DNA of 29,433 bases from a virus. Each line of letters starts with the position of its first letter. Position 1 is the stretch's first letter. Shown here piece after piece: positions 4,874 through 26,645 of the stretch. The notes beneath the pieces were generated by a model. It did no database searches, had not been told where the DNA came from, and was given only the letters and a program-made list of their open reading frames with translations. A program made the translations under genes and the position numbers. The DNA is taken from positions 1-29,433 of IMG/VR virus record IMGVR_UViG_3300014720_000125. One strand, written 5' to 3'.

Positions 4874-5260
4874 ATGCCAGTCACTCCAGACGTAACGCCC
4901 CCAGACTACTCGACAGCTGTTGGGCAAGTTCGATTATTGATCCCAGATACAGAGCAACTTGGAGATACTCCAACCTATATCTTTAGCGATCCACAGATAT
5001 CTGCCTTTCTTGCGATGTATAGCAACAGCATTAAGAGGGCTGCCGCTCAAGCAAAGCTTGTTCTTGCTACAAGCGAAGCACTGATTAACAAAGTAATCAG
5101 GACCTATGACTTTCAAACAGATGGCGCTAAACTTGGCGCTGAACTTCGTGCCCAGGCGCAGGCACTTCAGGCGGAAGCCGATCGTGATGAACTTGATGAA
5201 TCAAGCGACACCTTCATAGTAACTGCACCTACCACGAAGTGGACCAATACTTGGCTTTAA
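4874..5260 (+). CDS. Head-tail connector / adaptor protein
   Basis: A 128-residue protein starting PVTPDVTPPDYSTAVGQVRLLIPDTE, with FSDPQISAFL near residue 37, a long helical segment (RAAAQAKLVLATSEALINKVI) and TDGAKLGAELRAQAQALQAEAD. The order "short N-terminus, GQVRLLIPDT, D..I..FL, Ala-rich helices, tDGAKLG..L" is typical of the head-tail adaptors of actinophages, the gp6/gp15-like connector family that forms the ring below the portal. It is followed directly by a stopper-like gene, an HK97-gp10-like gene and a tail terminator. That is the normal neck gene order and supports the call. Its 3' end overlaps the next gene by 22 nt. Confidence 0.7.
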   Translation: MPVTPDVTPPDYSTAVGQVRLLIPDTEQLGDTPTYIFSDPQISAFLAMYSNSIKRAAAQAKLVLATSEALINKVIRTYDFQTDGAKLGAELRAQAQALQAEADRDELDESSDTFIVTAPTTKWTNTWL

Positions 5261-5739
5261 ACTCTCGATCTGCCATTGATCCGAGATGGTATACCCATAA
5301 TCGGTCGATTGAGCAATCCCTAGAGCTTTGTAGCGTAGAAATATATAACCCCGCAAGTGCTAGCAGTACTTACGATGCTGCGACAAATACCTGGAGCGAT
5401 AACTCTGTAATTCTTTGGCAGGGCAAGGCAAGAATTCAACCTCGTTCCTCGACCGTGCGACTGGGCACAACGGGGAATGTATATACAGCGATCGACCCCG
5501 GTGCCAGCCAAATAATGGAAGTTCATATTGGGCTAAAGGAAAATCAACTAGCGGGGTCTAATGGCGATATGCCAGATTTGCGCCCGGGCCACAGAATGCT
5601 CATTACGGCCTCCCCTATTGACCCTGCTCTTTTAAACTTTGAGTTTGTTGTGCGTTCGGTACTAAACAGCTCTAACCCCTGGCACAGACTACTGCTATGT
5701 GAAGTAAATCAAGAATTGAATCCGAATAACAATGGCTAA
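5239..5739 (+). CDS. Head closure / stopper-like neck protein
   Basis: A 166-residue protein with a GTG start at 5239, 22 nt inside the adaptor gene. A TTG at 5251 is an alternative, and neither has a clear ribosome site. Key parts are RSIEQSLELCSVEIYNP near the N-terminus, ILWQGKARIQPR at about residue 58, and RPGHRMLITASPID at about 115. This "E...C.V......W.G.aRi.p" layout resembles the head-to-tail stopper proteins of actinophages, which close the DNA exit channel under the adaptor. The identification rests on this pattern and on the position between adaptor and gp10-like genes. It ends by overlapping the next start by 8 nt. Confidence 0.6.
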   Translation: MDQYLALNSRSAIDPRWYTHNRSIEQSLELCSVEIYNPASASSTYDAATNTWSDNSVILWQGKARIQPRSSTVRLGTTGNVYTAIDPGASQIMEVHIGLKENQLAGSNGDMPDLRPGHRMLITASPIDPALLNFEFVVRSVLNSSNPWHRLLLCEVNQELNPNNNG

Positions 5740-6262
5740 ACTTACATACAATATCAGCCTAAAGGGCTTGAATTTTCCTGCGCCAGGACAGAAGAAAAGA
5801 TTTCCGCATTTAGAAAAAATAGAACAAGACCTTCGTTCATCTTTGGGCATTGGACTACAGGCTGGCGAAGAGGCAATGAAGGATCGAATTCTTAATAGCC
5901 CGCCAACTGGTTCTCGCGTAGACGATGGTCGCCGCGTGGATACCTGGACTATGTATGACAGCATTGGAAGAAGCCAAGTTCGCGCAGAAAAAGTGCGGGA
6001 CAGAAGGCGGCGCAGGCCGGCAAAGTTTAGTTTTGGTTTTCCAGCTGATGAAAATGGTAACATAGCAGATGCTCCCGCAACCCCAACTAGCGGCCCAAGC
6101 GAAAACCCAAGATGGCGACAAGACCCAAATTACTTTGTAATGCAGGAATATGGAGATGAGTTATTTGACGTATCTTATCCGGGTATGTTCGCACAAGAAG
6201 AGGGTCAAAGAGCATTTATTTCCACTTTTGAAAATGAGATGAAAAGAAAGGGTTATAAATAA
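5732..6262 (+). CDS. HK97 gp10-like neck/tail-completion protein
   Basis: A 176-residue basic protein. An N-terminal helix (HLEKIEQDLRSSLGIGLQAGEEAMKDRIL, residues 26-54) leads to a region with PPTGSRVDDGRRVDTWTMYDSIG, an Arg-rich patch (RDRRRRRPAKF) and a C-terminal part (YFVMQEYGDELFDVSYPGMFAQ...). In gp10-family proteins an N-terminal helix, a "P..TG.L..S" loop and a "y...qE.Gt" segment occur in the same order. Here the matching pieces are TGSRVDD and YFVMQEYGD. It lies between the stopper and the tail terminator, as expected. It overlaps both neighbours (8 nt upstream, 1 nt downstream). Confidence 0.55.
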   Translation: MAKLTYNISLKGLNFPAPGQKKRFPHLEKIEQDLRSSLGIGLQAGEEAMKDRILNSPPTGSRVDDGRRVDTWTMYDSIGRSQVRAEKVRDRRRRRPAKFSFGFPADENGNIADAPATPTSGPSENPRWRQDPNYFVMQEYGDELFDVSYPGMFAQEEGQRAFISTFENEMKRKGYK

Positions 6263-6693
6263 TGAGCCTTTCGTTATTGCCAGTACAAGATCAAATCGTA
6301 ACTAAACTACAAGAGCTGCCTCAGTCGGTTTATGAAAATGGCGTTCCAGATGATGCGCAGCTAGAATACCAAAACGGCATTATGCTTCCGTTTATTGTGC
6401 CCTTCTTTGGTGGATTTGCGAGATCAAGCGATGGCAGGGGAATAGTATCTTCAAGAATGGATCTTGGAGAAAGCTATTGTATTGTTCAATGCGTTGGCCC
6501 AACTGAGCGATCATCGAGGCAGGTAGCCGATGCGGTTAGAGACAAGTTAACTGGATTTAAGCCAACTGATGCTGGGGAGCTAAGGCCAATAACAAACAGC
6601 AGAATTGTGTTGCCAGACTTCACTTCAAGACCCGCAAAGTATGTTGCTGAAGTTACTTTTAGGTATTCGGTAAACACAAATGTGGTATCATAA
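6262..6693 (+). CDS. Tail terminator-like protein
   Basis: A 143-residue protein whose ATG overlaps the preceding stop as TAATG. It starts with a helix (LLPVQDQIVTKLQEL). Next come a beta-rich middle with IMLPFIVPFFGG and SYCIVQCVGPTERSSRQVADAVRDKLTGF, and a final strand AKYVAEVTFRYSVNT. An "i...v...L...tdag" helix packed on a small sheet and a length near 140 match the tail terminators (lambda gpU-like) that cap the tail tube before head joining. Sequence similarity in this family is weak, so position just upstream of the major tail protein is the main support. Confidence 0.55.
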   Translation: MSLSLLPVQDQIVTKLQELPQSVYENGVPDDAQLEYQNGIMLPFIVPFFGGFARSSDGRGIVSSRMDLGESYCIVQCVGPTERSSRQVADAVRDKLTGFKPTDAGELRPITNSRIVLPDFTSRPAKYVAEVTFRYSVNTNVVS

Positions 6694-6714
6694 TAAAGAT
6701 TAGGAAGGACTTTT

Positions 6715-6936
6715 ATGGCTGTTGCTGCCAAGAATGTTCGCACAGGTAAGGTGTCAATTGTACCCGATCACTATATCGGACATCCGGTTTTGGGCAAAGA
6801 CCTCGTTTTAGAAACTGACGAGGCTCCGGCTGCACCAAAAAACAAAAAGAAGCAAGCTGAATTTTTCTCAAAGTGGGAAGACTCGGCTCGCACGGAACTA
6901 AAGGAGCAGCCAGCTCCAGAAACTACAGAGGAATAA
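6715..6936 (+). CDS. Small Lys/Glu-rich protein upstream of the major tail protein
   Basis: A 73-residue protein with a strong ribosome site (TAGGAAGGA, 6701-6709) about 5 nt before the ATG. It begins AVAAKNVRTGKVSIVPDHYIGHPVLG and ends with a charged, probably disordered tail (APKNKKKQAEFF, then KEQPAPETTEE). A short protein in this position, with a "tG.v..vp.h...hp.lg..l" core and a charged tail, is common in siphoviruses of Actinobacteria. I know of no proven function. It is likely co-expressed with the tail tube. Confidence 0.6.
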   Translation: MAVAAKNVRTGKVSIVPDHYIGHPVLGKDLVLETDEAPAAPKNKKKQAEFFSKWEDSARTELKEQPAPETTEE

Positions 6937-6940
6937 AACT

Positions 6941-8020
6941 ATGCCTACAAAAATGCTACGTCCAAACGTTGGTATTTATGTTGCAGCCTCAAATGCGTTT
7001 GCAAATTTCGCAGCTCCTACGCTGACCGAGATTACGGACGACACAAAGGTCTTCAACATTTCTCCAGCCGTTACTGACGACTACACCCTGAACATGACCG
7101 ACTCCGAGAGCGACAGCTCACTAGCGATTGTCGACAACGCAGACGTTCAGACCCCAACCTACCACAACTACGAAGCCTCTCTAGACGGCTTCCGTGACGA
7201 GAGCCTAAGCGCGACTTCTGTTTACAACAAGTTCCGCGACCTGTTCTCCACTCCAGATGTTAAGTACTACCTAGTCAAGAGAATTGGTAAGGCGCACGAC
7301 GCAGCCTTCGCAGCTGGCGACGAGATTAGCGTCTACGGCGTAAAGACCGACTTCCCAGTTGACATTGTTGGCGACAGCGAAATGATTCGCCTTGGCGCTC
7401 GCTTCCTAACCACTGGTGAAGTTGCTGTCAACGTAGCAGTTGGCGCTGGAACCGCAGGTTCTGGCCCAGAGCTTCGTGCAACTGTTGGAACCAAGTCAAC
7501 TTCAAACGGAAAGATTAAGGTTTACTGGGTTCCAGTATCCGCAATCTCCGGAACTGAAGATGACTTCGTTGCTGCTCCAGATGTATCCGACATCGCCGCA
7601 GGCGGAGTTGACCTAACCGAGGCTATCGCTTGGGACAGCTATGACCTGGGTGCAAACGACTCAAACAAGATCGACGACCGTGGCATTGTTGACACCGGAC
7701 AGGTTCAGTCTCGTGGATTTGCGCAGTTCAGTGGTTCTCTAATGTTCTTCCGTGGCATTACCTCGGAGAGCAGCGGAGCTTACTACAATGCTTATGAGAC
7801 ATTCAAGGCAGCAACTGACGGAAGCCGTCCAGTTGGATTCTTGGTAACTCGTATCAACGTTCCTACCAGCACCGCACTTGCTGCTACCCAAAAGGTTAAC
7901 GCTTTCAAGTTCATTGCAGATGCATTTATGGACAACACCGAGGGCGAAGACAGCGTGAAGTTTATGGTTAACTTCATGCCACAGGGTAAGCTCGGAGTAA
8001 ACGTAGCTGCCGTAGCGTAG
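6941..8020 (+). CDS. Major tail (tube) protein
   Basis: A 359-residue protein with AGAGGA upstream of the ATG. It is the best candidate for the tail tube subunit. It lies directly after the tail terminator and directly before the G/GT chaperone pair and the tape measure. It is followed by a strong intrinsic terminator, and its codon choice is clearly different from its neighbours. It uses mostly GAC, AAC, TTC, AAG and TAC, and reads GC-richer than flanking genes, as expected for a very highly expressed gene. It starts PTKMLRPNVGIYVAASNAF. The C-terminus (FMPQGKLGVNVAAVA) is compact. At 359 residues it is longer than minimal tube proteins, so residues about 165-240 could be an added outer domain (inference). 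Confidence 0.75.
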   Translation: MPTKMLRPNVGIYVAASNAFANFAAPTLTEITDDTKVFNISPAVTDDYTLNMTDSESDSSLAIVDNADVQTPTYHNYEASLDGFRDESLSATSVYNKFRDLFSTPDVKYYLVKRIGKAHDAAFAAGDEISVYGVKTDFPVDIVGDSEMIRLGARFLTTGEVAVNVAVGAGTAGSGPELRATVGTKSTSNGKIKVYWVPVSAISGTEDDFVAAPDVSDIAAGGVDLTEAIAWDSYDLGANDSNKIDDRGIVDTGQVQSRGFAQFSGSLMFFRGITSESSGAYYNAYETFKAATDGSRPVGFLVTRINVPTSTALAATQKVNAFKFIADAFMDNTEGEDSVKFMVNFMPQGKLGVNVAAVA

Positions 8021-23431: not shown

Positions 23432-23828
23432 TTCTGCTTTCCTTTATCTTTAGTTTTCTACTAATTGAAGACTGCGAAACCCCCGAGAGCCTCATAATCA
23501 TATTCTGGCTTGTACCCATTTCAATTGCTCTCTTTACTGCCTGATAATCAAAATCACCCATTGACTTTGTAAAGAGAATTTGCCTGAGCGTCTCTAGTGA
23601 CTCTGGCTCAAAAGATCCGCCAGTCTTATCTGTTTTATTTGTATAGGCTTTGATCTTTGAATGATTGACTCCAGATCCAAATATTTTTGCTATCTGCCTA
23701 TTGGAAAATAATCCGTAGCGCGAAAGCTCTGTAGTCTTATCGGCAATCTGTTTGTCAGAAAATGTTTTAGCATTTTCCCTAATCCAAATTGCAGTATTGA
23801 TTGCTTCTAATCTTTTTTCGTCGTTCAT
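23424..23828 (-). CDS. Helix-turn-helix DNA-binding protein
   Basis: A 134-residue basic protein whose ATG overlaps the primase stop by 4 nt (ATGA). Two helix-turn-helix-like segments are seen: FSNRQIAKIFGSGVNHSKIK near residue 42, and EMGTSQNMIMRLSGVSQSSIS near residue 102. The latter has the "T...i....gvs.stisr.L" pattern of recognition helices. It could be a transcription regulator of the phage or a replication accessory. No dimer or effector domain is recognised. It follows the primase directly in the operon. Confidence 0.65.
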   Translation of the reverse strand: MNDEKRLEAINTAIWIRENAKTFSDKQIADKTTELSRYGLFSNRQIAKIFGSGVNHSKIKAYTNKTDKTGGSFEPESLETLRQILFTKSMGDFDYQAVKRAIEMGTSQNMIMRLSGVSQSSISRKLKIKESRND

Positions 23829-26014
23829 ACCGTCTCCAAAAATCTTTTGCTTCCATCAATTACAATATTAATTCGAGCCTGAGAGTGAAGAGATTCGATC
23901 ATATCGTCGAACTCCCTCTTCTTCTTATCCCCAAACTTCTTAAATGCCTCTTCGTAGCGAATTCGGCCACCCTTTGCAACAATGAGTGCCTCTAACGAGT
24001 CAACATCTCTCTGCCAGTCTGAAGCAGATATTGCACTAGCCATTCTCACTAGATTTGCAAACCAGCCCTCCGCATAATGAATTGCGACCAGGACGTGCTT
24101 TAGCTCAACCCTTAGCGACCTCTCCTGCATAGCGAGTAGGATAGATATCTTCCAAACCGACAATGCAAGTCTCTGCCTTGATGGCTCGATTGATTCTTCG
24201 TGCTGATGTCCGCTTGTATATTCGCCCATATCCCATTTGAACTGATTGAACCGAGCTAGTGCCTCATCCGATAATAAAACCGGCACAGGTGGTTCTGGTG
24301 ATTGATTGAGCCACCATTGATAAGTTTCCAGCAGCGACCTGACAATCTCTTCCATCTCGACATCACGCCTAAAGCTGTCAGCAGAGCTAGCCTGAGAAAG
24401 GTCCTCTGATTCCCTTGTGCGCTCTGGGGCATCCGCTACAACATAGATAAACCTAGCCAAAAAGCCTGAGCGGAAGTAATCAGTAGTAAGAATCTCAGCA
24501 ACTTTACTCGTGATACCCATTAGATACATAATAAAGTTTGTCTCAGCCCTGTCGGTCTGAAGGGCTTTTATGCCAGTGTTCGCACCAGTGGAGCGAAGCA
24601 TTACTGGAACTTTTCCGTCATATAGTTCTGTGTATTGATCTGCGGCAGCTGACATATATGTCTTAGTTACAAACTCTTTGAACATACCCTGCACCTCGTC
24701 TCGGTGGAACATAGATGTCATTTTGTCTCGTCCCGCCAAGTGCTTGACCAATGCCTCACCAGTTGCATTGGAGCCGATGTCGATTTGGTATCCAATTTGA
24801 TTCTCAAAAGATGAGAGCATCTTTAGCATCAGCGCCCGACTGGTTGATTTTCTGCTACGAGTTGTTTCACCCAGTAGCATAAACCAAAGGTTTAGTCCCA
24901 TCTTTCCATACTTTGGAGCCGCCACACCCGCTGAGGAGAACACAGCAGACAAGAGGATAAAAGCACTTGCTACTTGATACTCAATCGCTCCATCAGTTTT
25001 CTTTTTAGCCCAAGCACAGTATCGGTCAATGAAGGTATGGGTCGAGCTGACTTTAGTCCGCTCTTCCGCGGATAAAAAGTCAATCTTCTTCTCTGGAGCT
25101 GGCTCAACATCTAGCGGCTCGATTGCTTGATTGATATCCCCTAAAGACTGTTGCGCTCTCTGAACCTCACGCCACAGATCGCCATCGGCATCCGCCCTCT
25201 TTGGTCTCGATGGGTGATGATATTTGTTGCATTTTGCATTTTTAGCAACCACAAAAACTTCTTCTGCAGATAGCCCCTGCCTAAAAAGCTCAAGCTCTAG
25301 CCTCCAAAGCATTCTGCTCATATCCGAATTCATATTCGGCTCTTCCATATACAGGGATAAGATTTCCCTATTGCTGGAAATTTTTGAAAGAACCTTTATT
25401 AGCTCTGGCGTTTGCTCGGGAAGCGGAAGGTTCGCCAACTCCGGAACGGCCTCAACGGAAACATCGGCATAAGTCTTTTCTATTTCATCAATCGAATACA
25501 CAACGCCAGTATTATTTGCGCTGACTCGAAATCGCTCTGGGTATTTTAGATTGCTAGTGCCAGCAACTCGAAGTAGCTTAGTCGGGTTCCAGCCAGAAAC
25601 ATCACAGCCCTGGTCTCTGTGTGCGTAGGCAATCTTTTTGGCAATTGTTGCAACCCTCTGCGGGTCTTGTTCGTTATCAAGGATCCAGTAACAGTGCCAT
25701 CTGTCCCTGGATGTCTCCACGGATATTGATGGCTCAAGTCTAAAGTTGCTCGGGTGACAGGTGTCGGCATCCGCATACACAACAGAAACAGCTTTAGCGT
25801 TTTCACGAATTCGTCTTTGTTCGTAAAACAGAATTGGTGAAAAGTAAACATCTTCCTCAGAGTATTTTTCGGCGTAGGCAGACATCTGCTCAAGCTCGTC
25901 TGGATAACTAAAGAACTTTTGAACTGTAGGAGTTGATTGGCTATCCTTTGTTACAAGCGTGGCGTAGCCAGCGGATGAGCCGAGAACTGACTCTAGGAAC
26001 TGCTCAATTGACAT
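23825..26014 (-). CDS. AEP primase fused to DUF3987 helicase-like ATPase
   Basis: A 729-residue protein. The ATG at 26014 is chosen for its strong GAGGAG site; an ATG 12 nt upstream has none. Residues 70-170 look like an archaeo-eukaryotic primase core: DAD (Asp82/Asp84 in VYADAD), RWHCYW (His107) and a later Asp-containing segment GCDVSGWNPTKLLRVAG. Residues about 310-640 match DUF3987: a nucleotide-binding loop LLGETTRSRKST (382-391, an Arg where a Gly is usual), a FHRDEVQG (Asp439/Glu440) Walker-B-like site and SGFLARF with a possible Arg finger. It would start DNA synthesis and unwind DNA at the fork. Similar fused primase-helicases occur in many phages. Confidence 0.82.
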   Translation of the reverse strand: MSIEQFLESVLGSSAGYATLVTKDSQSTPTVQKFFSYPDELEQMSAYAEKYSEEDVYFSPILFYEQRRIRENAKAVSVVYADADTCHPSNFRLEPSISVETSRDRWHCYWILDNEQDPQRVATIAKKIAYAHRDQGCDVSGWNPTKLLRVAGTSNLKYPERFRVSANNTGVVYSIDEIEKTYADVSVEAVPELANLPLPEQTPELIKVLSKISSNREILSLYMEEPNMNSDMSRMLWRLELELFRQGLSAEEVFVVAKNAKCNKYHHPSRPKRADADGDLWREVQRAQQSLGDINQAIEPLDVEPAPEKKIDFLSAEERTKVSSTHTFIDRYCAWAKKKTDGAIEYQVASAFILLSAVFSSAGVAAPKYGKMGLNLWFMLLGETTRSRKSTSRALMLKMLSSFENQIGYQIDIGSNATGEALVKHLAGRDKMTSMFHRDEVQGMFKEFVTKTYMSAAADQYTELYDGKVPVMLRSTGANTGIKALQTDRAETNFIMYLMGITSKVAEILTTDYFRSGFLARFIYVVADAPERTRESEDLSQASSADSFRRDVEMEEIVRSLLETYQWWLNQSPEPPVPVLLSDEALARFNQFKWDMGEYTSGHQHEESIEPSRQRLALSVWKISILLAMQERSLRVELKHVLVAIHYAEGWFANLVRMASAISASDWQRDVDSLEALIVAKGGRIRYEEAFKKFGDKKKREFDDMIESLHSQARINIVIDGSKRFLETV

Positions 26015-26039
26015 TTTTCTCCTCAAAAAAAGTGTCTAG

Positions 26040-26130
26040 TCCCCTTTCAGGAATCGAACCTGACATCGCCAAGGAGAGCCGGGCCGAGAGAAACAGAGAG
26101 AAAACCCGAAACGATGCACCAAGAAGGGGT
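26040..26130 (-). ncRNA. tRNA-like structured element (perfect T-arm, 6-bp acceptor-like helix, no D-arm)
   Basis: On the minus strand 26047-26063 form a perfect T-arm: 5-bp stem TCAGG/CCTGA with the loop TTCGATT, i.e. the exact B-box GGTTCGATTCC. The following AAGGGG pairs with CCCCTT at 26124-26129 to close a 91-nt element. Inside, CATCG (26112-26116) and CGATG (26064-26068) pair in 5 bp. No D-arm or anticodon loop with a U33 can be fitted, so it is not a normal tRNA, and no tmRNA tag sequence is seen. Just after the 3' end are CTA (instead of CCA) and later T7. It may be a tRNA-derived RNA, a tRNA relic, or an attP core made of a tRNA 3' end. Confidence 0.5.
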
Positions 26131-26133
26131 TGG

Positions 26134-26156
26134 TGAGCAGTTTATACTCTTGCTCA
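26134..26156. repeat. Inverted repeat TGAGCA...TGCTCA around a TATAAA-like box
   Basis: TGAGCA (26134-26139) and TGCTCA (26151-26156) are perfect 6-bp inverted repeats around 11 nt that read AGAGTATAAAC on the minus strand. Next to it, CACCAA/TTGGTG (26117-26122 and 26130-26135) forms another 6-bp hairpin with a 7-nt loop. The first repeat may be an operator over a promoter for the downstream tRNA-like element or primase gene. Both are within the 160-nt gap between the SSB-like and primase genes. Confidence 0.35.
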
Positions 26157-26174
26157 GGAGCGCCCATTAGGGAA

Positions 26175-26645
26175 CTACCAAGTGTCGCTATCGCCCTCAG
26201 TAGTCTTTTTTGCACCCATTGATTTTAAGAGAGCCTCTGGGGTGCTGGCAGGCTTAGTGAAACCTGCCACATTGTTTTCCTCGCCCTCAAGGCCAGGAAC
26301 GATTTTAACTTTTGCACCGATCGACATACCCATCAAGTCTTTGGTAGCAGGAACTGCAAACTTGCCGTCCTTCATATCAAAGCCAAGTGCCTCAAAAAAA
26401 GCCTGAGTCTTCCAGAATGCCTTGCCGGTGTAAAGTGGAACATAGGTGAACAGCCTACGATTTTCGTAATCACCCTCAGAAATTCTGAGCTGTAGTTTGA
26501 ACTGCGGCTTACCTGCGTTTTCTCCATTCTTGACCTCTAGGGTCTCAATGTCGAAGATGGTGGTGCTATAAGTTCCTGCTGGAATAAGTCCGTAATCAGA
26601 CTTTGGTGCTAAGTCTCCAGCGGAGATGTTGATGCTAATTGCCAT
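26175..26645 (-). CDS. DUF669-like / SSB-like single-strand DNA-binding protein
   Basis: A 156-residue protein with a perfect AAGGAGG ribosome site embedded in the end of the Sak4 gene. The layout (AGTYSTTIFDIETLEVKNGEN, then KPQFKLQLRISEGDYENRRLFTYVPLY, then AFWKTQAFFEALGFDM) matches the DUF669 family, an OB-fold-type protein often next to phage recombinases. The C-terminus GDSDTW is acidic with a terminal aromatic, like the interaction tip of SSB proteins. It probably coats single-stranded DNA and loads the Sak4-like partner encoded just upstream. Confidence 0.78.
   Translation of the reverse strand: MAISINISAGDLAPKSDYGLIPAGTYSTTIFDIETLEVKNGENAGKPQFKLQLRISEGDYENRRLFTYVPLYTGKAFWKTQAFFEALGFDMKDGKFAVPATKDLMGMSIGAKVKIVPGLEGEENNVAGFTKPASTPEALLKSMGAKKTTEGDSDTW

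Follow-up and report, generated by a model that had tools for sequence, protein, structure and literature searches.

D-armless tRNAs are known from mitochondria, and plant-virus tRNA-like structures with upstream pseudoknots sit at the 3' ends of RNA genomes. The element described here, a tRNA-like RNA (TLS), resembles the former in the short linker that replaces its D-arm and the latter in the succession of a pseudoknot and a tRNA-like fold. However, the TLS has no anticodon loop, its helix is longer than in the mitochondrial tRNAs and its loop is pyrimidine-rich; unlike the plant-virus structures, it lies between genes of a DNA phage and its sequence is unrelated to theirs. With tmRNA (RF00023) it has in common the acceptor, an unpaired GG linker, a long helix by the T-arm and an H-type pseudoknot, predicted to be in the same transcript, but it lacks a tag frame, its pseudoknot lies 5' of the acceptor and the family model gives no match in the window, which is the whole stretch of 29,433 nucleotides that we analysed. 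Among phages, mycobacteriophage DS6A encodes a TLD-only (CDS-less) tmRNA, a small RNA that amounts to little more than the tmRNA tRNA-like domain and has no tag frame (PMC4131195, PMC11915505). According to the same two papers, a TLD-only molecule, alanine-chargeable or not, strongly inhibits tmRNA, perhaps by SmpB titration (PMC4131195, PMC11915505, citing Mao et al. 2009). Like the DS6A RNA, the TLS is phage-encoded and small and has a tRNA-like domain without a tag frame. The DS6A RNA is nevertheless recognised as a tmRNA, whereas the TLS lacks an RF00023 match, the G3-U70 pair and UUCGAC, and carries in addition an anti-Shine-Dalgarno loop and a pseudoknot outside the tRNA-like domain.

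The TLS lies on the minus strand of the window, between an SSB-like gene and a DNA primase gene (Table 1). Along this strand, the SSB stop codon is followed by 13 nt, the pseudoknot, 3 nt, the TLS and 24 nt that contain the primase Shine-Dalgarno (SD) sequence and lead to the primase ATG. At the 5' end of the TLS, an unpaired A at 26130 precedes the acceptor strand CCCCTT, which starts at 26129. A WhiB-like gene is present in the window; together with the isolate phages that have tRNA-like RNAs at the same position, it points to a host that is probably actinobacterial.

Table 1. Features of the locus and of the mini-tmRNAs (coordinates of the window unless another record is named)
Feature	Position	Strand	Evidence or remark
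tRNA-like RNA (TLS), acceptor to C74, without D-arm	26039..26130	minus	R1 match 30.7 bits; covariation
H-type pseudoknot	26134..26161	minus	sole generic-pseudoknot match in window; S1 covaries
Pseudoknot parts: S1 GCTC/GAGT, L1 C, S2 TGAGCA/TGCTCA, L2 A, L3 ATAAAC	26134..26161	minus	
Acceptor stem, 5' strand CCCCTT	26124..26129	minus	pairs with 26041-26046
Linker CTTGGTG replacing the D-arm; GG at 26120-26119	26117..26123	minus	GG in 66/66
Inner arm	26064..26116	minus	helix CATCG (26116-26112) / CGATG (26068-26064)
Inner hairpin within the inner arm	CGGG 26108-26105 / CCCG 26083-26080	minus	
CTCCTT, anti-Shine-Dalgarno-like motif, loop region	26071..26076	minus	39/53 distinct loops, 5.5 expected
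T-arm TCAGG-TTCGATT-CCTGA	26047..26063	minus	stem 26063-26059 / 26051-26047, loop 26058-26052
Acceptor stem, 3' strand AAGGGG	26041..26046	minus	covariation alignment
Discriminator A73 and C74	26039..26040	minus	A73 64/66, C74 66/66
SSB-like gene, upstream	26175..26645	minus	weak match to PHROG single-strand DNA binding protein families; DUF669
DNA primase gene, downstream	23825..26014	minus	phrog_10514 DNA primase, E = 7.5e-162; ATG 26014-26012
Mini-tmRNAs	L016:4460-4542, L018:3406-3488, L019:4376-4458, L052:2105-2185, L047:2302-2384		near pseudoknot-TLS or tRNA genes

The first-pass annotation, made from this sequence alone, had proposed a tRNA-like RNA with an exact T-arm, a 6-bp acceptor-like pairing and a 5-bp inner helix. 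Read directly on the minus strand, the T-arm is indeed exact, with the 5-bp stem TCAGG/CCTGA around TTCGATT, and the pairings CCCCTT/AAGGGG and CATCG/CGATG are both present. Its further remarks also stand: the acceptor/T-arm stack counts 11 bp, the 3' end reads ACTA at the position of the NCCA of a tRNA, no tag frame is seen in the 92-nt TLS, and the D-arm and anticodon loop are absent from the window element and likewise from its aligned relatives. The pseudoknot, the conserved C74, the linker GG and the CTCCTT motif had escaped it. It had recommended running ARAGORN and Infernal, among others: on the window, ARAGORN found no tRNA, and Rfam gave no match to tRNA (RF00005) or tmRNA (RF00023) even at E ≤ 10. 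The stability of the fold did not differ significantly from that of shuffled sequences (z = +0.66). Since these three results are negative, the window sequence alone is indistinguishable from chance, and it is the relatives, rather than the single sequence, that confirm the element as a genuine D-armless tRNA-like RNA.

Relatives of the primase in viral contigs have a tRNA-like element in the matching gap, written in very different letters. We built a covariance model, R1, from 7 other phages, the window being excluded. The seed covered only the TLS, with the longest loops trimmed mid-loop, because MAFFT misaligned the pseudoknot when pseudoknot and TLS were taken together; the full set was aligned by R1. 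The model matches the window at 26039-26130 with 30.7 bits (E = 2.5e-4, 469 kb searched). It also matches 78 of 80 sources, which include dozens of uncultured relatives and were chosen mainly through the primase alignment, once in each, upstream of the primase and between the SSB-like and primase genes. Elements score 23-80 bits and a weaker second copy 19, as against 13-24 for true tRNA genes at these loci. When the whole records of 24 phages were scanned, one TLS per genome was found in the window's group and two in the record of L034, and the weaker matches included true tRNA genes and a mini-tmRNA. The second element of L034 (4915-4965) is compact and lies about 90 nt after the first, with acceptor GAATAG/CTATTC, a perfect helix ATCTAGA/TCTAGAT and the loop TTCCCCCA. 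Another D-armless tRNA-like element (L042:4256-4320, 22.9 bits with R1) was observed in an unrelated phage-like contig that has a DNA polymerase-like gene; it is located 3' of a strong promoter-like sequence and 5' of a small gene.

As an alignment made by R1 favours the modelled structure, shuffled and slid controls were used, the slid control also guarding against the ancestry that covariation counts share; the T-stem is set by the T-loop, independently of the fit. Among 66 distinct TLS sequences, 93.7% of the cells are base-paired compared with 63.0% after shuffling, and the covariation score is 0.790 compared with 0.220 in shuffled and 0.08-0.12 in slid controls. Cells with a double change number 409 (116 in the control), and 18 of the 19 pairs are altered on both sides in some sequence. 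In alignment A6, paired cells reach 93.6% in helix 1 (acceptor), 92.3% in helix 2 (inner) and 95.3% in helix 3 (T-stem). Compensatory changes across related phages, a check that the first-pass annotation had suggested, were found in all three helices; the inner helix CATCG/CGATG of the window, for instance, is CACCG/CGGTG in L037. The linker GG, the T-loop TTC(G/A)A and C74 occur in 66/66 sequences and A73 in 64/66, and position 75 may be any base, so that the 3' end, with C74 fixed and N75 free, is like that of tRNA genes without an encoded CCA. The acceptor, the T-arm, the GG/T-loop elbow and N73-C74 of a tRNA are all found in the TLS. Because the GG, the T-loop, A73 and C74 are near-invariant and the helices covary, we conclude from sequence comparison that selection maintains a tRNA elbow and a tRNA 3' end in the TLS, which has neither a D-arm nor an anticodon. 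The relatives' structure, the covariation and the conserved residues back the earlier suggestion of a novel tRNA-like RNA, and a search of the open-access literature returned no description of the TLS or of the pseudoknot.

Cultured phages have counterparts. In the Arthrobacter phages Amavida and Molivia, 'tRNA-OTHER' or tRNA-Gly genes with aberrant anticodon loops lie between SSB and primase; the Amigovirus 'tRNA-OTHER' elements share with the TLS its position and the same pseudoknot directly 5', but they retain the D-arm and their anticodon loop is aberrant. Microbacterium phage WaterT carries an unannotated pseudoknot and tRNA-like element (about L051:848-982, pairings read by eye); a hypothetical WaterT protein used as query in the viral scan gave no match. 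Unannotated tRNA-like folds missed by ARAGORN are also found just 5' of the primase in Lupine (L357 from 2235) and ASegato (L356 from 2101), with z-scores of -2.3 and -2.1, and Clavibacter phage CN1A has a 49-nt acceptor-plus-T-arm RNA with the 3' end ACCA. By this comparison, the SSB-primase position holds tRNA-like RNAs well beyond the window's group, not all of them D-armless. In Curtobacterium phage Yappy, an unannotated tRNA-like element (L049:2274-2363), with a sub-threshold tRNA-Sec match of 31.6 bits (threshold 47), adjoins on the upstream side a tRNA-Leu next to the primase.

The pseudoknot was found directly upstream of 62 of the 66 distinct TLS, compared with 7/78 for shuffled upstream sequence. 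A stricter generic pseudoknot scan gave 1 copy in the window, 17 across the loci collected at that stage and 0 in shuffled loci, and a pattern that fixes only stem S2 gave at least 120 stretches in viral contigs. Among the 118 distinct copies listed, S1, which the pattern does not select, is complementary at its 2nd and 3rd pairs in 118/118, where 58 and 46 would be expected; the commonest distance from the upstream stop codon is 5-11 nt. Copies of the form xxxC-CTGAGCA-N-Gxxx-NNAAAC-TGCTCA abound in unrelated phages as well as bacterial genomes (L052-L171, L197-L276), and the pseudoknot also precedes many tRNA genes. S1 has at least 3 bp in 67 of the 82 bacterial-genome matches; the carriers include Lactobacillaceae, Saccharibacteria, Nostoc, Patescibacteria and others, with up to 3 copies within a few kb. 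An Rfam search over the pseudoknot copies found no family that covers them. Because it is widespread in phages and bacteria, has a complementary S1 and belongs to no Rfam family, the pseudoknot is, on this comparison, a general element, to which a tRNA-like RNA has been coupled in these phages. It may act as a barrier to ribosomes after termination, or insulate tRNA genes that lie downstream of it. On the minus strand of L199 (Polynucleobacter MAG), near 655, a sequence resembling a hammerhead ribozyme, CTGATGAG...GGACGAA, is found at most about 40 nt downstream of a pseudoknot copy. In an Ignavibacteria chromosome (L265, at 1777, 3038 and 5924) and in L275, copies are interspersed with repeats, ATGGTTCAATTCAAA for example, that may form a CRISPR-like or other direct-repeat array.

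The loop between the strands of the inner helix is pyrimidine-rich. CTCCTT is present in 39 of 53 distinct loops, when shuffled loops would give 5.5 and reach 11 at most; it is absent in a few members (L327, L311), and in the window it occupies the 3' side of the internal loop, away from the tip. Compared with the 3' tail of 16S rRNA, the loops have a mean longest match of 7.4 nt, as against 5.2 for both shuffled and reversed loops; since reversed loops match the tail no better than shuffled ones, the motif has a direction. The loops of L018 and L016 contain an exact ACCTCCTTTC. The loop is more complementary to the primase SD region of its own phage than in permuted pairings (0/200); for the SSB SD region there is no such excess. 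Against the nearest relative with a different primase SD, however, the own pairing is better in 19 cases, worse in 13 and equal in 33, and since the excess shrinks in this way it largely reflects shared ancestry. The TLS ends at most 60 nt from the primase match in 26 of 65 phages; in some others it is more than 500 nt away, with tRNA genes between, so that pairing in cis with the primase SD is not obligatory. We consider it a good inference that the loop would pair with SD sites in general, rather than in a dedicated manner with the primase site.

Structure, conservation, the fixed position between SSB and primase genes and the orientation of the loop motif are what the comparison of relatives establishes. 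The TLS probably acts on translation, given that in most relatives its loop displays the sequence with which the ribosome finds its starts. We propose, with a probability of roughly 45%, that it is a co-transcribed small RNA, processed like a tRNA, whose loop pairs with SD sites to regulate translation. The scaffold consists of the H-type pseudoknot followed by the acceptor stem, the T-arm and the GG/T-loop elbow, with the D-arm reduced to a short linker. In place of the anticodon arm there is a longer helix, and CUCCUU, the anti-SD sequence of 16S rRNA, is usually exposed in its loop. The TLS would be transcribed with the SSB-like and primase genes and excised or marked by the enzymes that mature tRNAs, through RNase P cleavage, 3' processing and CCA addition. 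Its loop would pair with SD sites, probably that of the primase included, delaying or lowering translation; the TLS may also work in trans on other messages.

The main rival to this proposal, which we hold to be rather unlikely, is that the TLS mimics tmRNA: a tagless tRNA-like domain, bound to SmpB, to EF-Tu or to the stalled ribosome, would block host trans-translation. Its topology is identical to that of the tmRNA tRNA-like domain, with no D-stem and a long helix beside the T-arm, and the linkers UGGUUGAC or UGGAUUAC of relatives resemble the tmRNA sequences UGGUUUCGAC or UGGAUUCGAC. Moreover, true tagless mini-tmRNAs of 81-83 nt lie in the same gap of four uncultured phages (L016, L018, L019, L052) and of Stenotrophomonas virus Jojan60; they score 40.8-61.8 bits with RF00023 while about 300 model positions are missing, 2 of the 5 pass the curated threshold of 47, and the G3-U70 alanine mark is present in all. 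An apical CCGTATACGG palindrome is invariant on a variable helix in the mini-tmRNAs of L016, L018, L019 and L052. The DS6A RNA offers a precedent, being thought to block trans-translation, in line with the inhibition of tmRNA by TLD-only RNA (PMC4131195, PMC11915505), and by analogy the TLS may work like a TLD-only tmRNA. However, the window TLS gives no RF00023 match at E ≤ 10 (311 nt searched) and has no UUCGAC, the third acceptor pair is C-G or U-A instead of G3-U70 in all rows of A6, and mimicry leaves the conserved CUCCUU loop and the pseudoknot unexplained. The mini-tmRNA and the TLS are probably not redundant, because the four uncultured phages keep both. The tmRNA-like order noticed in the first-pass annotation thus survives as an order of parts (acceptor, no D-stem, long helix, T-arm), with four relatives having a tagless mini-tmRNA nearby, but not as a tmRNA identity of the window element, which has no family match, G3-U70, UUCGAC or tag frame.

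It is less probable still that the TLS is a mere processing mark, a tRNA-like substrate at which RNase P and 3' processing would part the SSB message from the primase message; the pseudoknot would then hold back ribosomes or nucleases, and the loop would be incidental. The constant position between two co-directed genes, the tRNA-like 3' end, the real or odd tRNA genes in the same gap of Amigovirus, Microbacterium and Curtobacterium phages and the pseudoknot before many tRNA genes would all agree with this, but neither the oriented CUCCUU motif nor the loss of the D-arm in every member of the group is accounted for. Even more doubtful is a role as decoy for ribonuclease toxins of phage defence whose targets are tRNAs or the anti-SD region of 16S rRNA. 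The loop does copy a sequence described as a hot spot of cleavage by mycobacterial toxins: beside the anti-SD sequence for RelE1, inside it for MazF6 (PMC12620021) and just before it for MazF11 (PMC12274833). The related phages Amavida and CN1A encode an RNA ligase and a polynucleotide kinase, that is, RNA repair. But no toxin is known for the host, and MazF11 requires CACCU, which is missing from most loops. The repair genes are located at 42440-44494 in Amavida (L358) and 5054-6998 in CN1A (L050), both phages having odd tRNA-like RNAs before the primase, an association that fits a defence against tRNA-cutting systems. Finally, the exact T-arm and acceptor-like 3' end of the window had also been read as a tRNA relic, or as an attP derived from the 3' half of a host tRNA. 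We reject both as extremely improbable. Covariation in every helix and the invariance of the elbow residues contradict a relic. What contradicts attP is that the acceptor and T-stem covary, that 17 related, possibly incomplete contigs have no tyrosine integrase (PF00589), when the control was positive in 14/14 genomes, and that the exact TLS 3' half is rare: just two viral records contain it, and one is a near-copy of the window's phage.

We therefore retain the SD-pairing small RNA as our preferred reading, and tentatively regard the TLS as a new family of phage small RNAs that shows the anti-SD sequence of the ribosome on a tRNA-like scaffold with a pseudoknot, as a tRNA-processed translational regulator or decoy. 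What the comparison brings to light is an RNA family that many uncultured phages have conserved, that Rfam lacks and that tRNA finders miss or mislabel; the stop-codon-proximal pseudoknot is a second, broader lead beyond it. As cultured Arthrobacter and Microbacterium phages have counterparts at the same position, the anti-SD and tmRNA-antagonist ideas can be put to the test. Should the TLS work like the DS6A RNA, phages would antagonise ribosome rescue commonly, and not just as a curiosity; should its loop work as an anti-SD sequence, translation initiation would be the target of an RNA shaped like a tRNA.
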